Source: Wenzhouxiangella sp. XN201 (GTDB taxonomy: Bacteria > Pseudomonadota > Gammaproteobacteria > Xanthomonadales > Wenzhouxiangellaceae). From it: a stretch of DNA of 64,000 nt. The first letter of the stretch is position 1, and each line of letters opens with the position of its first letter. Location of the stretch: contig NZ_JAAIVI010000017.1 in assembly GCF_011008905.1 (NCBI RefSeq), positions 1,589,750 to 1,653,749 of the forward strand, in the 5' to 3' direction. The notes under the pieces are model-generated. The model did no database searches, had not been told where the DNA came from, and was given only the letters and a program-made list of their open reading frames with translations. The position numbers and the translations under genes were made by a program. Positions 49,923-57,259 of the stretch are shown here, piece by piece.

Positions 49923-50912
49923 GTGTCCCACAGCCGCTACAGACTCCCGGCCGAATGGGAACGGCAAAGCGCCACCCTGCTGGCCTGGCCGTCGGCCGAA
50001 TCCGACTGGCGTGACCAACTTGAGGCGATCCGCGACGAGTACCGTGAGCTGATCACCGTCCTCATGCGATTCCAGACCGTGGTGCTGCTGACCCGGCCTG
50101 GTGAGGAGCAGCCTTCAGGTCTGCCGCTCGACCATCCCCGGCTGCACTGCCTGTCGGTCGACTTCGACGACACCTGGTGCCGCGACTACGGACCGATCGT
50201 GCTGGTTTCGGGCGGCCAGCGGATGGCGCTGGATTTCCACTTCAACGGCTGGGGCGGCAAGTATCCGGCCGCGCTCGACAATCGGGTCAACAGCCACCTG
50301 GCGCGCCATGAACTGTTCAACCGCCTGGAGTTTCGTCAGTACCTGCTCGAATTCGAGGGCGGCGCCATCGACTGCGACGGCCAGGGCCGCGTATTGATCA
50401 ATCGCCACTGCTTGCGCACCCGGCATTCGCACATGAGCGACGCTGAAATCGATCACCAACTCCAGGCGGTACTCAACCTCGACGAGGTGATCGGCATCGA
50501 CCTCGAGCCCATGCCCGGCGACGACACCGACGGCCACATCGACACCCTGGTGCGCTTTGTCGATACCGACACCCTGGTATTCCAGGTCCAGGCCGACACG
50601 GCCCGCACCGAGCGCCTGCGCGGTCAGCTCGAGACCCTGCGCACCGGCGATGCCTCAGCCTACCAGCTCCACGCCCTGCCCCATCCCGACGACCTCGATC
50701 CCGGGCTGCCGGCCAGCTACGCCAACTTCGTGCTGGCCAATGACGCCTGCCTGGTCCCGGCCTACGGCAGTCGCCACGACGAGGCCGCCCGCGACATCCT
50801 GGCCGAGCGATTTCCGGAGCGCGAGACCATATCGGTGCCCGCCCGCATCATGATCACCCAGTCGGGCGGACCGCACTGCGCCAGCATGCACATTCCGGCG
50901 GCCCTGGCATGA
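49923..50912 (+). CDS. aguA: Agmatine deiminase
   Basis: AguA hydrolyses agmatine to N-carbamoylputrescine and ammonia. The 329-residue protein has the pentein-fold motifs TLLAWPSAESDW, the substrate-binding WCRDYGPI, FEGGAIDCDG, GDDTDGHIDTLVRFVD with catalytic Asp/His, and nucleophile Cys319 in QSGGPHCASMHIP. The neighbour encodes the next enzyme of the pathway, which supports agmatine over peptidyl-arginine as substrate. The start is GTG at 49923. The stop overlaps aguB as ATGA. Confidence 0.92.
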   Translation: MSHSRYRLPAEWERQSATLLAWPSAESDWRDQLEAIRDEYRELITVLMRFQTVVLLTRPGEEQPSGLPLDHPRLHCLSVDFDDTWCRDYGPIVLVSGGQRMALDFHFNGWGGKYPAALDNRVNSHLARHELFNRLEFRQYLLEFEGGAIDCDGQGRVLINRHCLRTRHSHMSDAEIDHQLQAVLNLDEVIGIDLEPMPGDDTDGHIDTLVRFVDTDTLVFQVQADTARTERLRGQLETLRTGDASAYQLHALPHPDDLDPGLPASYANFVLANDACLVPAYGSRHDEAARDILAERFPERETISVPARIMITQSGGPHCASMHIPAALA

Positions 50913-51796
50913 GCGCGCACCAGCTTGTCATTGCCCTGATCCAGCACGCCATGGGCCCGCACGCCGAGGACAACCGTGCCGTCAGTGCCGCCGGCATCAC
51001 CGAGGCAGCCGAACTGGGCGCCGACCTGGTCCTGATGCCGGAACTGCATGCCAGCGAGTATTTCTGCAAGTACCAGGACCCTGAACTGTTCGACCTGGCC
51101 GAGCCCCTCGACGGTCCGACGGCGCAAATGCTCGCAGCTGCGGCAGCGGAGAACGAAGTGGTCGTGGTCGGCTCGATCTTCGAACAACGTGCGCCGGGGC
51201 TGGCCCACAACACGGCCCTGGTTTTCGACCGCGATGGCAGCCGGGCCGGCATCTACCGCAAGATGCACATCCCAGATGATCCGGGCTACAACGAAAAGTT
51301 CTACTTCACCCCCGGCGACCTCGGTTTCGAGCCGATCGATACCTCGGTCGGCCGCCTGGGCGTGCTGGTGTGCTGGGACCAGTGGTATCCCGAGGCCGCC
51401 CGCCTGATGGCCCTGGCCGGTGCAGACCTGCTGCTCTATCCGACGGCCATCGGCCTCGATCCGGATGACGACGAACAAGAGCAGCACCGCCAACTCGACG
51501 CCTGGCGCACCATCCAGCGCGCGCATGCCGTGGCCAACGGCATTCCCATGGCAACCTGCAACCGCGTCGGCTTCGAACCGGACCGCTCCGGCGGCAATCT
51601 CGAGGCGGAATTCTGGGGCCACAGCCTGGTCGCCGGCCCGCAGGGCGAAATCCTGGCCGAGGCCGGGAGCGAGGCCGAGGTCCTGATCACCACCCTCGAC
51701 CTGGACCGCAGTGAGCAGGTCCGCCGCCTCTGGCCGTTCCTGCGAGACCGCCGCATCGACGCCTACGGCGACCTGCTCAAACGCTGGCGAAGCTGA
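50909..51796 (+). CDS. aguB: N-carbamoylputrescine amidase
   Basis: AguB hydrolyses N-carbamoylputrescine to putrescine, CO2 and ammonia, completing agmatine catabolism. The 295-residue nitrilase-superfamily protein has the catalytic triad Glu45 (LMPELHASEYF), Lys118 (IYRKMHIPDDPGY) and Cys155 (VLVCWDQWYPEAARL). The sequence CWDQWYPEAAR plus IQRAHAVANGIPMATCNRVG is typical of AguB. It overlaps aguA by 4 bases. No speA (arginine decarboxylase) is in the window. Confidence 0.94.
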   Translation: MSAHQLVIALIQHAMGPHAEDNRAVSAAGITEAAELGADLVLMPELHASEYFCKYQDPELFDLAEPLDGPTAQMLAAAAAENEVVVVGSIFEQRAPGLAHNTALVFDRDGSRAGIYRKMHIPDDPGYNEKFYFTPGDLGFEPIDTSVGRLGVLVCWDQWYPEAARLMALAGADLLLYPTAIGLDPDDDEQEQHRQLDAWRTIQRAHAVANGIPMATCNRVGFEPDRSGGNLEAEFWGHSLVAGPQGEILAEAGSEAEVLITTLDLDRSEQVRRLWPFLRDRRIDAYGDLLKRWRS

Positions 51797-51816: not shown

Positions 51817-52563
51817 TCAGCCCGAGGGCGTCCCAAACGGCCAGCCCCGCACGTCTCCGCCAAGCTTGTTCAAGACCTCCCGCACAGCGCCACTCAGTGC
51901 CTCGACCCGAGCGGACCAGGCCCGGGCCGCGACCAGGGCCTGGTTGATCTCGATTTCCAGCGTGATGAGCCGGCGCCCGTCATATCGGCGCCGGTGTTGC
52001 TGGCCGATGCCGTTGGCCGTCCCGCGATAAGGCTGGTTCATACGGACGCGAAGCCCTGGCAGGCACCGGCCGATGGCCGCGCGCAGTTCGGCGGCGAAGG
52101 CGCGCTCGCTGGGCCGCCGCGGATCGTAGAGCAGTCCGATATCTGCCCTGCGTTCGACGCCTTCGAGCACCGGCACGAAGCTGTGACAGGCCAGGTGCAC
52201 GACCGGGGCGGCGCTGGCCGCCAGGAAATCGCCGAAGGCCTGCCAGTGCGGCTGCCAGTATTCGGCCTCGATGCGCCGGCGATCCGCCGGCGCAAGTTGG
52301 CGCGTCAGTTCGGAAAAACGCGCGGGATGACCGGCCGAGCGATTGAGATCGATCAGCAGGCGGGTCACCCGCCCGGCCAGCAGGGGTGCGCTCAGGGCTG
52401 TGGACAATGACCGGGCAAGATCGAGCGAGCCCGGGTCCCAGCCCCGGTGGCTGTCGAGCAGCGCCTCGTGCCCGGCAAATAGCGGCTGCCACCTGGGCGG
52501 CACTTCGTTGCGGGCATGCTCGCAGGTAATCAGGACCGAAACAGGCGATTCTGGGCCAGGCAT
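51817..52563 (-). CDS. N-formylglutamate amidohydrolase-like protein (amidoligase cluster)
   Basis: A 248-residue member of the N-formylglutamate amidohydrolase (FGase) family, zinc-dependent amide hydrolases. The family motifs are TCEHARNEVP near the N-terminus, SHRGWDPGSL, LIDLNRSAGHP and HLACHSFVP, together with GLRVRMNQPYRG and LITLEIEINQAL. It is the last of four overlapping minus-strand genes, overlapping the GCS2-like gene by 34 bases. Histidine-degradation genes are absent, so here it probably trims or matures the cluster's amide-linked product; that role is inference. Confidence 0.85.
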   Translation of the reverse strand: MPGPESPVSVLITCEHARNEVPPRWQPLFAGHEALLDSHRGWDPGSLDLARSLSTALSAPLLAGRVTRLLIDLNRSAGHPARFSELTRQLAPADRRRIEAEYWQPHWQAFGDFLAASAAPVVHLACHSFVPVLEGVERRADIGLLYDPRRPSERAFAAELRAAIGRCLPGLRVRMNQPYRGTANGIGQQHRRRYDGRRLITLEIEINQALVAARAWSARVEALSGAVREVLNKLGGDVRGWPFGTPSG

Positions 52564-53771
52564 GTCGCGAGTTCCCGATAACAGGCCGTGACCGTCTCGC
52601 CGGTCGGCGCGCGACCGAGCCGGTCCAGAATCGCTTCGGCCAGACTGCCGCGATCGATCATTTCGAGCAGGATGCCGGATGCCGCATCGGAAAGCTCGAT
52701 GCGCCCGACCAGCTCACGCCACAGCGTCGCCCCCTCCATCGGACGGTCGACATCGAACAGCGCCAGCCAATCAACCCGATCGAAGCGCACTGCCGAACCT
52801 TCGCGCGCCGCGGCGAACAGCTGATCGGCGAGGTCCTCGGTGCCCAGGGTCTGCGCCGCGGCCAGACGTCTATCGTCGTGGTAGATCCAGCGCACCAGAC
52901 CGACCACCGCCTCGGCAATCGCGAGGTCGGCCGCCGGGCATTCCTGGATGTCGATAATGCGAATCTCGATGGTCTGGCGTTCGAAGCGCGCAATCGCGCC
53001 ACGCGAATTGAGCCAGTCCTCGGCCAGGATGCCATCAGGATCGTGCGCCGCTACGGCCCGATACATCGGCTCCAGGATGCGCTGCCCGTAATCCTCGATT
53101 GAGGCGATGGCCTCCGGCACGATCCGGCCCGCAATCTCGGGTATGTGGCGCTGGTTGTCGCGGTAGTAGCGCAGGCGGCTGTCCATCCAACCCGAAGCAT
53201 GGCCTTCAACCAGCGGCGAGGCTGCCGCCAGGGCCGGAATCAGCGGCAGCACGGCCCGAATGGCCGCATGCAGTCGAACGAACTCGGCATCGTCGAAGAA
53301 CGGCAGATTGATGTGCATCGACTGCAGGTTCGACCAGCCATGCCCCCGGCACTGAAAAATGCGGTCGTAGGCGGCATAGATCTCGTTCTGGCCGTGCGGC
53401 CACAGACGCGTTTCGGAATCCGGATCGAACAGCGGATGCATGGCGGTAGGCAGGAGCATGCCGCCCATCGGCGCCAGCCCTTGGTTGACGGTCGCCACCG
53501 CTTCGGCAAAGCGGGCTGCTAGCGGGACCAGCGAGGGCGCCGGACCGTTGGTCTTGAACTCCACGACATGCAGCACCAGCTCGTTCGACCAGGCCAGCTC
53601 ACCGGCCTCGATCTCGTTGACCGGTTCCCCGTCCGACCCGGTCAGCAGGCGATCCGCCACGGGCAGGGCCGCCAGCGTGTCGCGCGCGACGATCATGTAT
53701 TCCAGCTCGATGCCGTAACCGGCAAAGGCATGCAGGTGGGGCTGGGGCGTAATCGGGTCAATCGTCGGCAT
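52530..53771 (-). CDS. GCS2-family carboxylate-amine ligase (glutamate-cysteine ligase-like)
   Basis: A 413-residue enzyme of the glutamate-cysteine ligase 2 superfamily, which forms amide bonds by an acyl-phosphate. FAGYGIELEYMIV at the N-terminus is the Glu-x-Glu metal site; HVVEFKTNGPAP, QSMHINLPFFDD and RFERQTIEIRIIDIQECPAADLAI are other family blocks. The ATG shares one base with the upstream ligase stop (TGATG), so translation is coupled. Given the cluster, it is more likely to link an amino acid onto a peptide-like product than to make gamma-glutamylcysteine. Confidence 0.85.
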   Translation of the reverse strand: MPTIDPITPQPHLHAFAGYGIELEYMIVARDTLAALPVADRLLTGSDGEPVNEIEAGELAWSNELVLHVVEFKTNGPAPSLVPLAARFAEAVATVNQGLAPMGGMLLPTAMHPLFDPDSETRLWPHGQNEIYAAYDRIFQCRGHGWSNLQSMHINLPFFDDAEFVRLHAAIRAVLPLIPALAAASPLVEGHASGWMDSRLRYYRDNQRHIPEIAGRIVPEAIASIEDYGQRILEPMYRAVAAHDPDGILAEDWLNSRGAIARFERQTIEIRIIDIQECPAADLAIAEAVVGLVRWIYHDDRRLAAAQTLGTEDLADQLFAAAREGSAVRFDRVDWLALFDVDRPMEGATLWRELVGRIELSDAASGILLEMIDRGSLAEAILDRLGRAPTGETVTACYRELATCLAQNRLFRS

Positions 53772-55237
53772 CAGGCGTTCCCCAGCTTGCGAGCCGTCAC
53801 ACGTTTGAGCATCACGCCCATGATCTCCCGATACAGCGCATCCTTGAGTACGGAATCCTCGCAGCCGGCATCGATCGACGGGTTGTCGTTGACCTCGATG
53901 ACCATGACCCGGCCGTCGATCTCCTTCAGATCCACCCCGTATAGCCCCTTGCCGATCAGCCCTGCGGCGCGCACCGCCATGTCGACCACGGCCTCCGGCG
54001 CTTCGCCCACCGACAGGGTGTCGGCCAGGCCTTCGTCGTCATCGCCGGCGTCATCGTGATTGTAGATCTGCCAATGCCCGCGGGCCATGTGATAGCGGCA
54101 CACATACAGCGGCCGCCCGTCGATCAGGCCGACGCGCCAGTCGAAGGCAGTCGGCAGGAATTCCTGCGCCACCACCAGCTCACTGTTCCTGAGCATCTCG
54201 CGCAGGGTGCGCTTGAGCATTTCGGCCGTCTCGACCTTGACCACGCCCAGTGAGAACGCACTGTCGGGCTGTTTGAGCACCACCGGCAGTCCCAGACGAT
54301 TCTCGACCTCGCCGGTGTTGTCGCGGTGCACCAGCAGGGTCTTTGGTGCGGCGATGCCGTGGCGCTGCAGCAGTTCGGCCAGGTAGACCTTGTTGGTGCA
54401 TTTGAGGATCGAATCGGGGTCGTCGATCACCACCAGGCCTTCGGCCGCCGCGCGCCGGGCGAAGCGGTAGGTGTGGTGGTTGACGGCGGTGGTTTCGCGG
54501 ATGAACAGCGCGTCGAACTCGGCCAGGCGCCCGATCTCGTCCGGACGGATGCGCTCGACGTGAAATCCAACCGACTCGCCGGCGCGCTCGAATCGTTTGA
54601 GGGCGCGCTCGTTCGAGGGCGGGTGCGCTTCATCCGGATTGACCAGCATGGCCAGATCGAAGCGCGCCGTCTTCGCCCGCCCGGCCCGCGGCCGTTTGCC
54701 GGAGAAATACATCCGGGCCGCTTCGCCGACGAACTCGAGATGGGTTTCGGGGATGTCTTCGAAGGAGATCGGCCCGATGCGCCTGAGCCCCCAGCCTTCG
54801 GCCAGGCGTTCGAAACGGGCCCGCAACAGCGGCGCCGGAAACAGGTTGAAAAGGGCGCGCGACAGGCGATCGTATCGGCGCGCCAGGTTACGTCCGAAAT
54901 AGATCGACAGGGTGAATTCATCCGACTGCAATGGCTTGAGGCTCGACTCGATCTGCCGCGCCAGCTCGGCCCCGGTCAGGCGCACGATGGCCGGCACCCG
55001 GAAATCCTGCAGTGTGGCAACCGAAGGCAGGGGCTTGTGGCCGCGCGCTGCCGCCAGCAACGACACATAGTAGCAATTGGCCTGGTAGCCATAGCTGCGG
55101 CACAAGTTGTAGACGCGCACGGCCCGTCGCTCCGACCAGGCCGGATCGGTCAGGTAGTCGCGAGCCAGGACACGCTCGACCCCCTCGATCGACAGCGGCC
55201 AGTCTTCCGGTCGGCTGACGACGATCAGCTGCTGCAT
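53771..55237 (-). CDS. RimK-like ATP-grasp ligase with RLAN N-terminal domain
   Basis: A 488-residue ATP-grasp enzyme. The N-terminal 150 residues (MQQLIVVSRPEDWPL, RVYNLCRSYGYQANCYYVSLLAAARGHK) fit the RimK-like ATP-grasp N-terminal (RLAN) domain. The ATP-grasp core follows with FIRETTAVNHHTYRFARRA, ILKCTNKVYLAELLQRHGI, PVVLKQPDSAFSLGVVKV and the metal site VIEVNDNPSIDAGCED. RimK relatives add amino acids by alpha- or gamma-linked peptide bonds. The ATG lies inside the end of the peptidase gene (13-base overlap). An N-terminal ORF extension to 55459 is antisense noise. Confidence 0.87.
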   Translation of the reverse strand: MQQLIVVSRPEDWPLSIEGVERVLARDYLTDPAWSERRAVRVYNLCRSYGYQANCYYVSLLAAARGHKPLPSVATLQDFRVPAIVRLTGAELARQIESSLKPLQSDEFTLSIYFGRNLARRYDRLSRALFNLFPAPLLRARFERLAEGWGLRRIGPISFEDIPETHLEFVGEAARMYFSGKRPRAGRAKTARFDLAMLVNPDEAHPPSNERALKRFERAGESVGFHVERIRPDEIGRLAEFDALFIRETTAVNHHTYRFARRAAAEGLVVIDDPDSILKCTNKVYLAELLQRHGIAAPKTLLVHRDNTGEVENRLGLPVVLKQPDSAFSLGVVKVETAEMLKRTLREMLRNSELVVAQEFLPTAFDWRVGLIDGRPLYVCRYHMARGHWQIYNHDDAGDDDEGLADTLSVGEAPEAVVDMAVRAAGLIGKGLYGVDLKEIDGRVMVIEVNDNPSIDAGCEDSVLKDALYREIMGVMLKRVTARKLGNA

Positions 55238-55935
55238 GGCCGAATCACCAGCAGGTTGGCATCGTAGGTCAGTGCACCGAGCAGGATGGCCGCGATCACG
55301 CGATCGATGTGCACAGCGTAGTTCTGGCTGCCACGCGGATTGGGGCTGGCCGGGTCCGCCACGATCACTTCGCGCGTCTCGCGCCGGTAGCCACTGAGTA
55401 CGACGAAGTGGCCGACCGGCTCGCCGCGGATGTCGTCGTCGGCATCGTCCGGACCCCACTCGCGCGCGGCCTGGTACAGATAGGTCGCGCTCAGGCCGGT
55501 CATCACCGGCTGGCCCGACGACAGCAAACGGCGCAGCAGGGCCCGGTTGAGATCGCCGAACTTGAGCTGACCGCCGGCGGCCAGAAATTCCAGGTAGCCC
55601 ACGGTGGCCGTGCTCAGCCGCTCGCGCCGCTTGAACGCCGCCTGCCGTCGCAGCTTGTTGGCCAGATCGATGTCCGGGCGCGAAAACCAGGTCGGGTCGA
55701 ACACTTCCAGGTTCCAGGTATGGATCGTCGCCCGGTAGCCCCGGGCCAGCGCATGATTGGCCAGGAATACGTCGAGCGTGCCGCCGTGGTCAAGGCGCTC
55801 GATCTCGTCGATGATCCGTCCGAGCCCAATCTCTTCACCGAAATGGCGGTAGACCGCATGCAGGCAGGTCGGGCCGCACGTCGTCGTATCGGGCTGGGCC
55901 TCGATGGCCAGACCAGCCTTTTGTGCGTGGATCAT
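55225..55935 (-). CDS. C39-like cysteine peptidase family protein (amidoligase cluster)
   Basis: A 236-residue papain-fold protein of the C39-like group. The nucleophile region is QPDTTTCGPTCLHAVYRHFG with Gln14 and Cys20; His176 lies in VGHFVVLSGYR, and Asp194 in VADPASPNP completes the triad. No signal peptide, ABC-transporter domain or membrane helix is present, so it is not a bacteriocin exporter; it likely acts in the cytoplasm. It is the first gene of the cluster, divergent from the TraB gene with a 118-base gap. A candidate -10 (GATAAT, 55973-55968) lies upstream. Confidence 0.84.
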   Translation of the reverse strand: MIHAQKAGLAIEAQPDTTTCGPTCLHAVYRHFGEEIGLGRIIDEIERLDHGGTLDVFLANHALARGYRATIHTWNLEVFDPTWFSRPDIDLANKLRRQAAFKRRERLSTATVGYLEFLAAGGQLKFGDLNRALLRRLLSSGQPVMTGLSATYLYQAAREWGPDDADDDIRGEPVGHFVVLSGYRRETREVIVADPASPNPRGSQNYAVHIDRVIAAILLGALTYDANLLVIRPCSS

Positions 55936-56053: not shown

Positions 56054-57259
56054 ATGACTCCCGAGCAGCAAGCTCTTTTCGGTGACGAGCCGGTACGGCA
56101 TGTCCAGCGCGATGGCGTGGACTACGCCCTGCTCGGCACGGCCCACGTTTCGCGCACCAGCGCCGAAGCGGTCGAACGCCTGCTCGCGAGCGGCCACTAC
56201 GATGCCGTGGCCGTCGAGCTGTGCCCTTCACGCTACCAGACCCTGACCGAGCGCGATGCCTGGCGCAACATGGACCTGTTCAGGATCATTCGCGAGGGCA
56301 AGGCCGGCATGATGATGGCCTCGCTGACCCTGTCGGCCTACCAGCGCCGCATCGCCGAACAGTTCGGCATCGAACCGGGCGCGGAAATGAAAGCGGCCAT
56401 CGAGGCCGCTGGCCGCGCCGGGATACCGGTACAGCTCATCGATCGCGAAATCGGCATCACGCTCCGGCGCGCTTCGCGCCGCCTGTCCTGGTGGAAGCGC
56501 TGGCTGATGCTCAATGGCCTGGTGATGTCGATGTTCTCGCGCCAGGAAATCAGCGAGGAAGACATCGAGCGCCTCAAACAGGGGGACCTGCTGACCGAGA
56601 CTTTCAGTGAGTTTTCCGAAACCGCGCCGGAGCTCTACGAATCCCTGATCACCGAACGCGATCGATTCATGGCCGCGCGGCTTCGCCAGGAAAACGAATC
56701 GGGCGAGTCGCGCCGGGTGCTCGCAGTGCTGGGTGCCGGTCACCTCGAGGGCACTGCCGAAGCGCTCGGCAGCGATGACGATCCGGAGCCGACCGTTTCG
56801 GAACTCAATCACATGCCACCGCCCTCGCGCTTCATCAAGGCCCTGCCCTGGCTCATCGCGGCCCTGGTGATTACCGGATTCGCCATCGGCTTCTCACGCT
56901 CGCCCGAACTGGGCCTGGCCCTGATTGCCACCTGGGTGATCATCAACGGCACGCTGTCCGCGCTGGGGGCGCTGATTGCCGGTGGGCATCCGCTCACCGT
57001 GCTCACCGCGCTGGTGGCCGCGCCGCTCACCTCGCTGAATCCGACCATCGGCGCGGGCATGGTCACCGGGGCGGTCGAGGCCTGGCTGCGCAAACCAAGG
57101 GTGGCCGATTTCGAGTCGCTGCGGGACGACGTGGTCAAGCTGTCCGGCTGGTGGCGAAATCGTGTCTCGCGAGTGCTGCTGGTGTTCTTTCTGTCAAACC
57201 TGGGTTCGGCCATCGGCACCTGGGTGGCCGGCTTCCGGATGGTGCAACAGCTCACCTGA
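56054..57259 (+). CDS. TraB/PrgY family membrane protein
   Basis: A 401-residue TraB-family protein. The GTAHVS motif is at 28-33, VAVELCPSRY at 53-62, then AEMKAAIEAAGRAGIPVQLIDREIGITLRRA and VLAVLGAGHLEG. The C-terminus holds about four membrane helices (ALPWLIAALVITGFAIGF, LGLALIATWVIINGTL and others). Enterococcal TraB/PrgY reduces pheromone activity; the biochemical role in proteobacteria is unknown. The start is the ATG at 56054; upstream frame is without similarity. The last 66 bases overlap the convergent kinase gene. Confidence 0.86.
   Translation: MTPEQQALFGDEPVRHVQRDGVDYALLGTAHVSRTSAEAVERLLASGHYDAVAVELCPSRYQTLTERDAWRNMDLFRIIREGKAGMMMASLTLSAYQRRIAEQFGIEPGAEMKAAIEAAGRAGIPVQLIDREIGITLRRASRRLSWWKRWLMLNGLVMSMFSRQEISEEDIERLKQGDLLTETFSEFSETAPELYESLITERDRFMAARLRQENESGESRRVLAVLGAGHLEGTAEALGSDDDPEPTVSELNHMPPPSRFIKALPWLIAALVITGFAIGFSRSPELGLALIATWVIINGTLSALGALIAGGHPLTVLTALVAAPLTSLNPTIGAGMVTGAVEAWLRKPRVADFESLRDDVVKLSGWWRNRVSRVLLVFFLSNLGSAIGTWVAGFRMVQQLT

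Follow-up and report, generated by a model that had tools for sequence, protein, structure and literature searches.

A conserved cassette of two ligases and two hydrolases in Wenzhouxiangella sp. XN201, tentatively linked to a gamma-glutamyl-type peptide or cofactor

Gene organization of the locus

A 64,000-nucleotide stretch of Wenzhouxiangella sp. XN201 (contig NZ_JAAIVI010000017.1, positions 1,589,750 to 1,653,749; hereafter the window), which is part of a 3.13-Mb assembly, contains four minus-strand genes at 51817-55935 that encode, in this order, a C39-like peptidase, an RLAN-RimK ligase, a GCS2-type ligase and an FGase-type amidohydrolase (Table 1). The four genes, here referred to as the cassette, overlap by 13 bases (C39/RLAN), 1 base (RLAN/GCS2) and 34 bases (GCS2/FGase), and the coordinates thus bear out the overlaps reported in an earlier note made from the sequence. 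The four family names proposed in that note also hold, as each protein matches its Pfam family above the cut-off: PF13529 (45.2 bits) and PF03412 (24.1 bits) for the C39-like protein, PF14401 (RLAN; 153.5 bits, cut-off 25) and PF08443 (RimK; 36.8 bits, cut-off 21) for the ligase, which is thereby assigned to the RLAN-RimK family, PF04107 (93.4 bits, cut-off 21) for the GCS2 protein, a member of the GCS2-fold carboxylate-amine ligases, and PF05013 (87.6 bits) for the FGase protein. The ligase start was taken as the ATG at 55237, which is supported by the family alignment; the mechanical open reading frame (ORF) call starts earlier, at a GTG at 55459, and the resulting 562-amino acid ORF was used in the Pfam scan of the ligase. 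The base composition of the cassette resembles that of its surroundings, and the closest GCS2 relatives among the matches listed are from Wenzhouxiangella. Promoter and terminator scans of the locus found none, a result that carries little weight.

Table 1. Cassette genes and the RLAN domain, with window coordinates
Feature	Length (amino acids)	Position	Strand	Gene order	Basis or remark
C39-like (papain-fold) cysteine peptidase	236	55935-55225	-	1	PF13529, PF03412, fold model
RLAN-RimK ATP-grasp ligase	488	55237-53771	-	2	PF14401, PF08443
Stretch covering the RLAN domain (ligase residues 1-205)		55237-54623	-		predicted lid-less degenerate RimK/LysX-like ATP-grasp half
GCS2-type carboxylate-amine ligase	413	53771-52530	-	3	PF04107, GhExE
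FGase-type amidohydrolase	248	52563-51817	-	4	PF05013

Co-inheritance among close relatives

Each of the four proteins was used to search 101 genomes, namely that of the window and 100 relatives. GCS2 was found in 21 genomes (23 matches minus those in G319 and G322, which are partial and of 28-31% identity), the RLAN ligase of the cassette clade in 23 (identity 56% or more; another 15 genomes at 45-48%), C39 in 21, and FGase in 20 with an identity of at least 45% and in 25 more below that value. The 38 genomes with a ligase match contain one ligase copy each. All four genes are present in 17 of the 23 genomes with a cassette-clade ligase, including that of the window; among the other six, G306, G308, G313 and G326 run off contig ends, and G317 (one contig) and G320 (65% complete) have no C39 match anywhere in the genome. 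In the genus of the window, 17 of 30 genomes possess a cassette-clade ligase and all four genes are absent from the other 13, several of which are incomplete drafts, five of which are at least 95% complete and two of which yield weak GCS2 matches only. The four genes thus come and go together and are jointly inherited. Among the exceptions, G337 has FGase alone, and the draft genome G340 (L139) has GCS2 on a different contig from C39-RLAN-FGase. In G340 (L123 and L139), GCS2 is a solitary gene located after one that looks like a pyridoxal phosphate enzyme gene, and the gap in C39-RLAN-FGase is too short to accommodate GCS2; this arrangement may be due to a rearrangement or an assembly error.

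Spread across phyla and variation in gene content

A scan of genomes with the GCS2 alignment yielded at least 570 confirmed relatives, of which the best 80 by score were kept. These are not a random sample, and some of them (such as L135-L143) are apparently the same assemblies as loci from the relatives set. According to NCBI ranks, the best 80 of these relatives belong to Pseudomonadota (30), Bacteroidota (29), Thermodesulfobacteriota (8), Myxococcota (2), Bdellovibrionota (2), and Deferribacterota, Spirochaetota, Eiseniibacteriota and Krumholzibacteriota (1 each), and the remaining five have no phylum rank, one being titled KSB1. As the two Myxococcota records are apparently titled only 'Deltaproteobacteria', the spread is given as at least eight phyla.

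The RLAN ligase adjoins GCS2 in 79 of the best 80 loci (its gene is a contig-edge fragment in L209 and is split in L208), and FGase and C39 are present in 71 and 55 loci, respectively, some of the absences being at contig ends. The two ligases are thus the constant core of the cassette, and the hydrolases are sometimes lost. None of the 21 Flavobacteriaceae loci has C39; when whole genomes were checked, 15 flavobacterial genomes contained no cassette-type C39 (weak matches lie within 738-770-residue frames in three of them), whereas three non-flavobacterial genomes with C39 loci each gave a strong match. C39 is also missing from L152, where the contig extends about 2 kb upstream. FGase is absent from L158, L159, L206 and L208 although the contig continues, and from L212, where about 600 bases of contig are left; in L154, it is located more than 4 kb away.

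Measurable junctions in the best 80 loci are overlapping or within 50 bases in 55 of 55 cases for C39-RLAN, 73 of 78 for RLAN-GCS2 and 64 of 70 for GCS2-FGase. Among the window, its relatives and a Legionella record, 12 of 18 loci have the 13-base overlap and 16 of 19 have the 34-base one, and the RLAN-GCS2 junction lies anywhere between a 14-base overlap and a gap of 100 bases. Relatives and members of other phyla show the same gene order, which takes the cassette well beyond chance. The co-occurrence check that the earlier note had called for thus reveals a conserved unit, but the 'strict stoichiometric system' that it had read from the overlaps is not supported, because the junctions vary from overlap to gap, C39 is absent from the 21 Flavobacteriaceae loci and G317, and FGase is absent from a few loci.

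In plasmid records, GCS2 was found once and the ligase in 17 (11 at 80% coverage or more; Azospirillum, with 7, is the commonest genus). Both were found only in a plasmid record of Legionella adelaidensis, where RimK, GCS2 and FGase follow one another as in the cassette; C39 was not found in this record, which begins at RimK.

Two other records deserve mention. L164 and L170, which carry the full cassette, are metagenome-assembled records titled Klebsiella pneumoniae, a species label suspected to be wrong. In the candidate division KSB1 record (L208:2773-5636), an insert interrupts the RLAN-RimK gene; it contains a 713-amino acid ORF with resolvase, recombinase and zinc-ribbon domains (a large serine recombinase), and no Rfam family was found.

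Two kinds of RLAN system

RLAN was present in 56 of 299 genomes sampled from the phylum of the window. None of the 58 non-window RLAN loci contains cassette-type C39, GCS2 or FGase, as judged with iterated profiles over flanks of at most about 8 kb, contig permitting. Instead, in these loci, designated type I, a match to a GNAT-C39 profile lies beside RLAN in 57 of 58, on the same strand in 37 and covering one domain in several; L038 has none. In the two type I neighbours that were scanned, the C39 part is PF11814. The C39 profiles of the window and type I are related (hhalign probability 96.2, E 2.3e-9), but the window C39 protein matches PF13529 and PF03412 only, with no match to PF11814 or GNAT at E 0.001 in the Pfam scan, and the window locus does not belong to type I. 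Both systems thus place an RLAN-RimK ligase next to a C39-fold hydrolase, whereas type I, the commoner RLAN system in the sampled phylum, includes a GNAT acetyltransferase and has no cassette-type GCS2 or FGase nearby.

In a FastTree phylogeny of 147 ligases, a single branch with a local support of 100 separates 57 type I ligases from 90 GCS2-linked ligases. The tree excludes GCS2-linked ligase ORFs shorter than 380 amino acids, as well as 9 of 156 rows that repeated the core stretch of another; the type I rows are from the phylum of the window only, the GCS2-linked rows were chosen by GCS2 similarity, and the output warns of long branches and odd letter make-up. The cassette ligases form a clade distinct from the type I RLAN ligases. 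The earlier note had held that its proposal would fall if the genes occurred mostly apart in other genomes; this is not the case for the cassette GCS2 clade (79 of 80 loci) but is true of RLAN ligases in general, as all 58 others in the phylum sample lack the partners within the flanks covered.

The amidoligase survey of Iyer et al. 2009 (Mol Biosyst, doi 10.1039/b917682a) reportedly predicted RLAN-RimK neighbourhoods with GNAT-papain-like proteins and with GCS2, and the Pfam entry for RLAN is said to mention neighbours of both kinds. The kind of association is therefore reportedly known by prediction, and the spread, the clade split and the proposal for the RLAN fold (see below) are additions made here. 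Among the papers listed by a literature search, no title or abstract opening describes the four-gene cluster. The survey is cited in an excerpt of PMC4431377.

The C39-like peptidase

Residues Q14, C20, H176 and D194 of the C39-like protein are invariant in a 17-row alignment. The hallmark of C39 peptidases is a conserved Cys, His and Asp with an oxyanion Gln, and the four residues are expected to be catalytic by analogy with that family. An AlphaFold model of the protein has a mean predicted local distance difference test (pLDDT) score of 74.3. The best solved folds for this model are the C39 domains of PCAT1 and ComA (Z about 13), and these matches and the conserved residues place the protein in the C39 peptidase/papain fold. 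The model also matches the phytochelatin synthase Alr0975 in a glutathione-bound structure (Z 12.9, 162 aligned residues, root-mean-square deviation (rmsd) 3.4).

Relationship to glutathione and histidine metabolism

The family names GCS2 and N-formylglutamate amidohydrolase could indicate that ordinary glutathione synthesis and histidine catabolism genes adjoin one another here by chance, and both cassette ligases do match related models, some of them for glutamate-cysteine ligase or glutathione synthase, although far below the cut-offs. The cassette GCS2 has no match to TIGR01436 at E 0.001 and is not a glutathione-type glutamate-cysteine ligase; its best NCBIfam match is TIGR02050 (51.7 bits, cut-off 176.4), and its matches to other carboxylate-amine or glutamate-cysteine ligase models are weak. 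The genome's own gshA (TIGR01436, 638.8 bits, cut-off 463) and gshB (TIGR01380, 391.8 bits, cut-off 299) are located elsewhere, and a second, weaker glutathione-synthetase-like match is present in the genome. Similarly, no NCBIfam model, including TIGR02017 (HutG), matches the cassette FGase at E 0.001, whereas the genome's own hutG lies at C17:472376 (TIGR02017, 334 bits, cut-off 279) beside hutF, which also exceeds its equivalog cut-off; the cassette FGase is therefore not assigned to the HutG deformylases. With the true gshA, gshB, hutG and hutF elsewhere and no equivalog cut-off reached by the cassette genes, the glutathione and hut explanations were rejected on the NCBIfam cut-offs, and a chance juxtaposition of such genes is scarcely credible. 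The earlier note had allowed that the GCS2 protein might prove to serve ordinary glutathione synthesis, which the lack of a TIGR01436 match and the separate gshA and gshB contradict.

The GhExE signature, which is described in passages of PMC2588565 that also link GCS2 to the Pup ligase, corresponds to G20-I21-E22-x-E24 in the cassette GCS2 and is invariant in a 20-row alignment. In one MAFFT placing, GCS2 shares 29 of 80 invariant columns with the genome's GshA, including G20, E22, E24, R199, R257, E269 and R271. The cassette FGase belongs to the same PF05013 family as HutG and Atu2144 (2odf), its profile matching the latter at E 1.5e-35. In a single MAFFT placing, it has 17 of 36 invariant columns in common with the genome's HutG, counting the start M; among them are H16, H39, D72, N74, R75, H127, S128 and E205. 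Because the invariant columns are partly shared with GshA and HutG, the chemistry has probably been kept and the substrates are probably different. By sequence, the cassette thus has the same two enzyme folds as GshA and GshB, with GhExE and further invariant columns in common with GshA, but its ligases fall below the glutathione family cut-offs and it adds two hydrolases.

A third GCS2-fold protein of the genome (L003, G000:C17:1547396-1547734) has C-terminal CBS domains and a borderline GCS2 score of 20.9 bits (cut-off 21).

The RLAN-RimK ligase and the origin of the RLAN domain

Residues D436, E448 and N450 of the ligase are invariant in a 20-row alignment and are expected to bind metal. 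The ligase scores 31 bits against NF007764 (RimK, the ribosomal protein S6 ligase; cut-off 331) and is not a member of that family; the Escherichia coli glutathione synthetase is among its weaker PDB matches (22.4 bits, E 3.1e-4).

The RLAN stretch (residues 1-205) was modelled on 60 aligned sequences, namely that of the window and 59 of 79 non-redundant loci, with a pLDDT of 91.2. In VIA-align comparisons of this predicted structure, where rows differing by no more than 1 count as tied, RLAN residues 1-180 align with RimK-type ATP-grasp chains over almost the full length of the latter: RimK, LysX and ArgX make up the first 11 rows (ArgX 3vpc: Z 12.1, 170 aligned residues, rmsd 3.9, chain 1-278), followed by D-Ala-D-Ala ligases at Z 10. 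Some 170 residues are aligned over a chain of about 280, so that a large part of the chain has no counterpart in RLAN, the simplest candidate being the ATP-binding lid. With the active ATP-grasp half coming after RLAN in the same protein, RLAN would be a degenerate second half, and we propose, on the evidence of the predicted structure, that it is a lid-less ATP-grasp half of the RimK/LysX type that may serve the active half as a built-in pseudo-subunit. Two results count against this new proposal: a profile comparison of RLAN with the ATP-grasp half was not significant (probability 1.1, E 0.048), and a search of PDB sequences with RLAN returned the eS12 ribosomal protein alone (best E 0.003) and no ATP-grasp protein. 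As both sequence comparisons failed to confirm it, the proposal takes its evidence from the predicted structure. The likeness of the cassette ligase to RimK, LysX and ArgX is accordingly twofold, RimK and LysX being the best PDB matches of its ATP-grasp half and all three the best folds for its RLAN half, but it differs from them in the extra RLAN half and reaches no equivalog cut-off. Should this proposal for RLAN hold, it would give a structural origin to a Pfam domain whose role is unclear.

Search for precursor, tag and partner genes

About 700 bases on each side of the cassette were searched for a small precursor or tag gene shared between families, and none was seen, although very divergent peptides could escape this search, which covered 1658 candidate ORFs of 18-110 amino acids and was judged on the 14 largest groups. 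The largest of these, with 25 loci, is read from the opposite strand at the start of C39 and looks like a shadow reading, as does one 9-locus group; the others are lineage-bound. Among the 25 largest neighbour groups, none recurs in more than 11 of 102 loci; the largest is TraB (11 loci, all from Wenzhouxiangellaceae or the family of the window), and a few smaller groups (4-9 loci) occur in more than one family, at positions that vary. Since no neighbour of any kind recurs more often, there is no partner transporter in more than 11 of the 102 loci. The lack of a shared precursor or tag and of a recurrent neighbour makes a small product inside the cell more likely than a secreted peptide or a tag encoded at the locus.

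These results bear on two alternatives. In the first, the cassette would modify proteins, with RLAN-RimK extending the end or a side chain of a host protein by amino acids in the way that RimK acts on S6, GCS2 creating an isopeptide bond in the manner of the Pup ligase, and the tag being detached by C39 and FGase. RimK is described in part of PMC10092738 as adding tails to ribosomal protein S6, passages of PMC2588565 give GCS2 and the Pup ligase PafA a common fold and GhExE motif, and the title of 3vpb indicates that an ArgX structure contains the protein LysW; in addition, the ATP-grasp half is nearest to RimK and LysX in the PDB, and two hydrolases next to two ligases could form a reversible system. 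However, among the 14 largest groups from about 700 bases on each side, neither a Pup-like tag gene nor another small carrier gene shared between families was seen (a very divergent tag, or one encoded elsewhere, would escape this search), no neighbour is widely shared, and the ligase falls far short of the S6 ligase cut-off. We consider protein modification unlikely, if still a serious alternative.

In the second, the locus would be a graspetide-like ribosomal-peptide cluster in which C39 is the leader peptidase and the ATP-grasp enzyme the cyclase; sections of PMC8939145, which concerns graspetides, report that double-glycine C39 peptidase-transporters are among the most frequent neighbours of graspetide ATP-grasp genes. 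The cassette C39 is, however, a separate 236-amino acid protein without an ABC (ATP-binding cassette) transporter part, no leader-core precursor was seen in the flanks or neighbour groups near the cassette, no neighbour is widely conserved, and the single ligase copy per genome (38 genomes) and the one gene order over phyla are unlike a variable natural-product cluster. A graspetide origin is very improbable.

Proposed function

Our preferred reading, held tentatively and with somewhat less than even confidence, is that the cassette encodes a self-contained intracellular pathway for a short, non-ribosomal gamma-glutamyl-type peptide or peptide-like cofactor. In this pathway, GCS2 would phosphorylate glutamate, or a close analogue, on its side-chain carboxylate and join this to an amine or amino acid, and the RLAN-RimK ATP-grasp ligase would then add the next residue at the carboxyl end, a division of labour like that of GshA and GshB. 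FGase, as a metal-dependent amidohydrolase, may take off an N-terminal acyl cap or hydrolyse a side product, and the C39-like cysteine hydrolase, where present, may release, trim or exchange a residue, so that a phytochelatin-synthase-like or C39-like hydrolase would be added to a GshA- and GshB-like pair. The enzyme families, the conservation of active-site residues, the co-inheritance, the separate ligase clade and the presence of glutathione genes elsewhere come from the computations, and from there on we infer the substrates, the order of steps, the product and the cell location of this pathway.

Counted in favour of the gamma-glutamyl pathway are the families and motifs, the recurrent gene order with short junctions, the joint presence and absence of the genes, the clade split of the ligases, the weak PDB match of the ligase to glutathione synthetase, the invariant residues that GCS2 shares with GshA, the Alr0975 match of C39, the absence of a recurrent neighbour or small gene, which suits a small substrate, and the pairing of a GCS2-fold with an ATP-grasp enzyme, which matches GshA/GshB while the real gshA and gshB sit elsewhere. 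Several observations weigh against it. In the PDB, the ligase profile matches RimK and LysX best rather than glutathione synthetase, and the substrate of RimK is a protein. The overlap of invariant columns between GCS2 and GshA is low, and the GCS2 profile is far from all solved structures (YbdK, E 0.0072; plant glutamate-cysteine ligase, E 0.008). The Alr0975 match is tied in Z with the C39 leader peptidases, the papain fold being generic and proof of no function, and residues 1-18, 154-174 and 197-203 of the C39 model have pLDDT values below 50. Finally, as the Flavobacteriaceae loci and the FGase-less loci with continuing contigs indicate, neither hydrolase step is universal.

The same variation bears on a salvage or detoxification role, in which the cassette would remodel existing gamma-glutamyl or N-acyl amino acids, the hydrolases being the main enzymes and the ligases re-using the parts. 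Two of the four genes do encode hydrolases, and FGase has nearly half of its invariant columns in common with HutG, but it is the hydrolases that are most often absent (C39 from 25 and FGase from 9 of the 80 loci, some at contig ends), whereas the ligases are together in 79. Such a role appears quite improbable.

The gamma-glutamyl pathway can be extended to a broader scenario, which we regard as rather doubtful: a two-ligase pathway found in at least eight phyla and apparently moved as a unit would make a new glutathione-like gamma-glutamyl peptide or cofactor, its ligase would combine a dead RLAN half with a live half, and the partner module would have been swapped between GNAT (type I) and GCS2-FGase. 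More generally, a compact enzyme set that is intact over distant phyla and lies outside the characterised pathways found points to an overlooked common compound or modification.

Genes adjoining the cassette

A likely agmatine-to-putrescine gene pair at 49923-51796 adjoins the cassette in convergent orientation and consists of an agmatine deiminase family member (PF04371, 286.9 bits) and an N-carbamoylputrescine amidase-like nitrilase (TIGR03381, 286.7 bits, below the cut-off of 410). On the other side, a TraB-family gene (56054-57259) is divergent from the cassette and lies at a similar distance in several Wenzhouxiangellaceae; its start is probably the ATG near 56054, not 55904.

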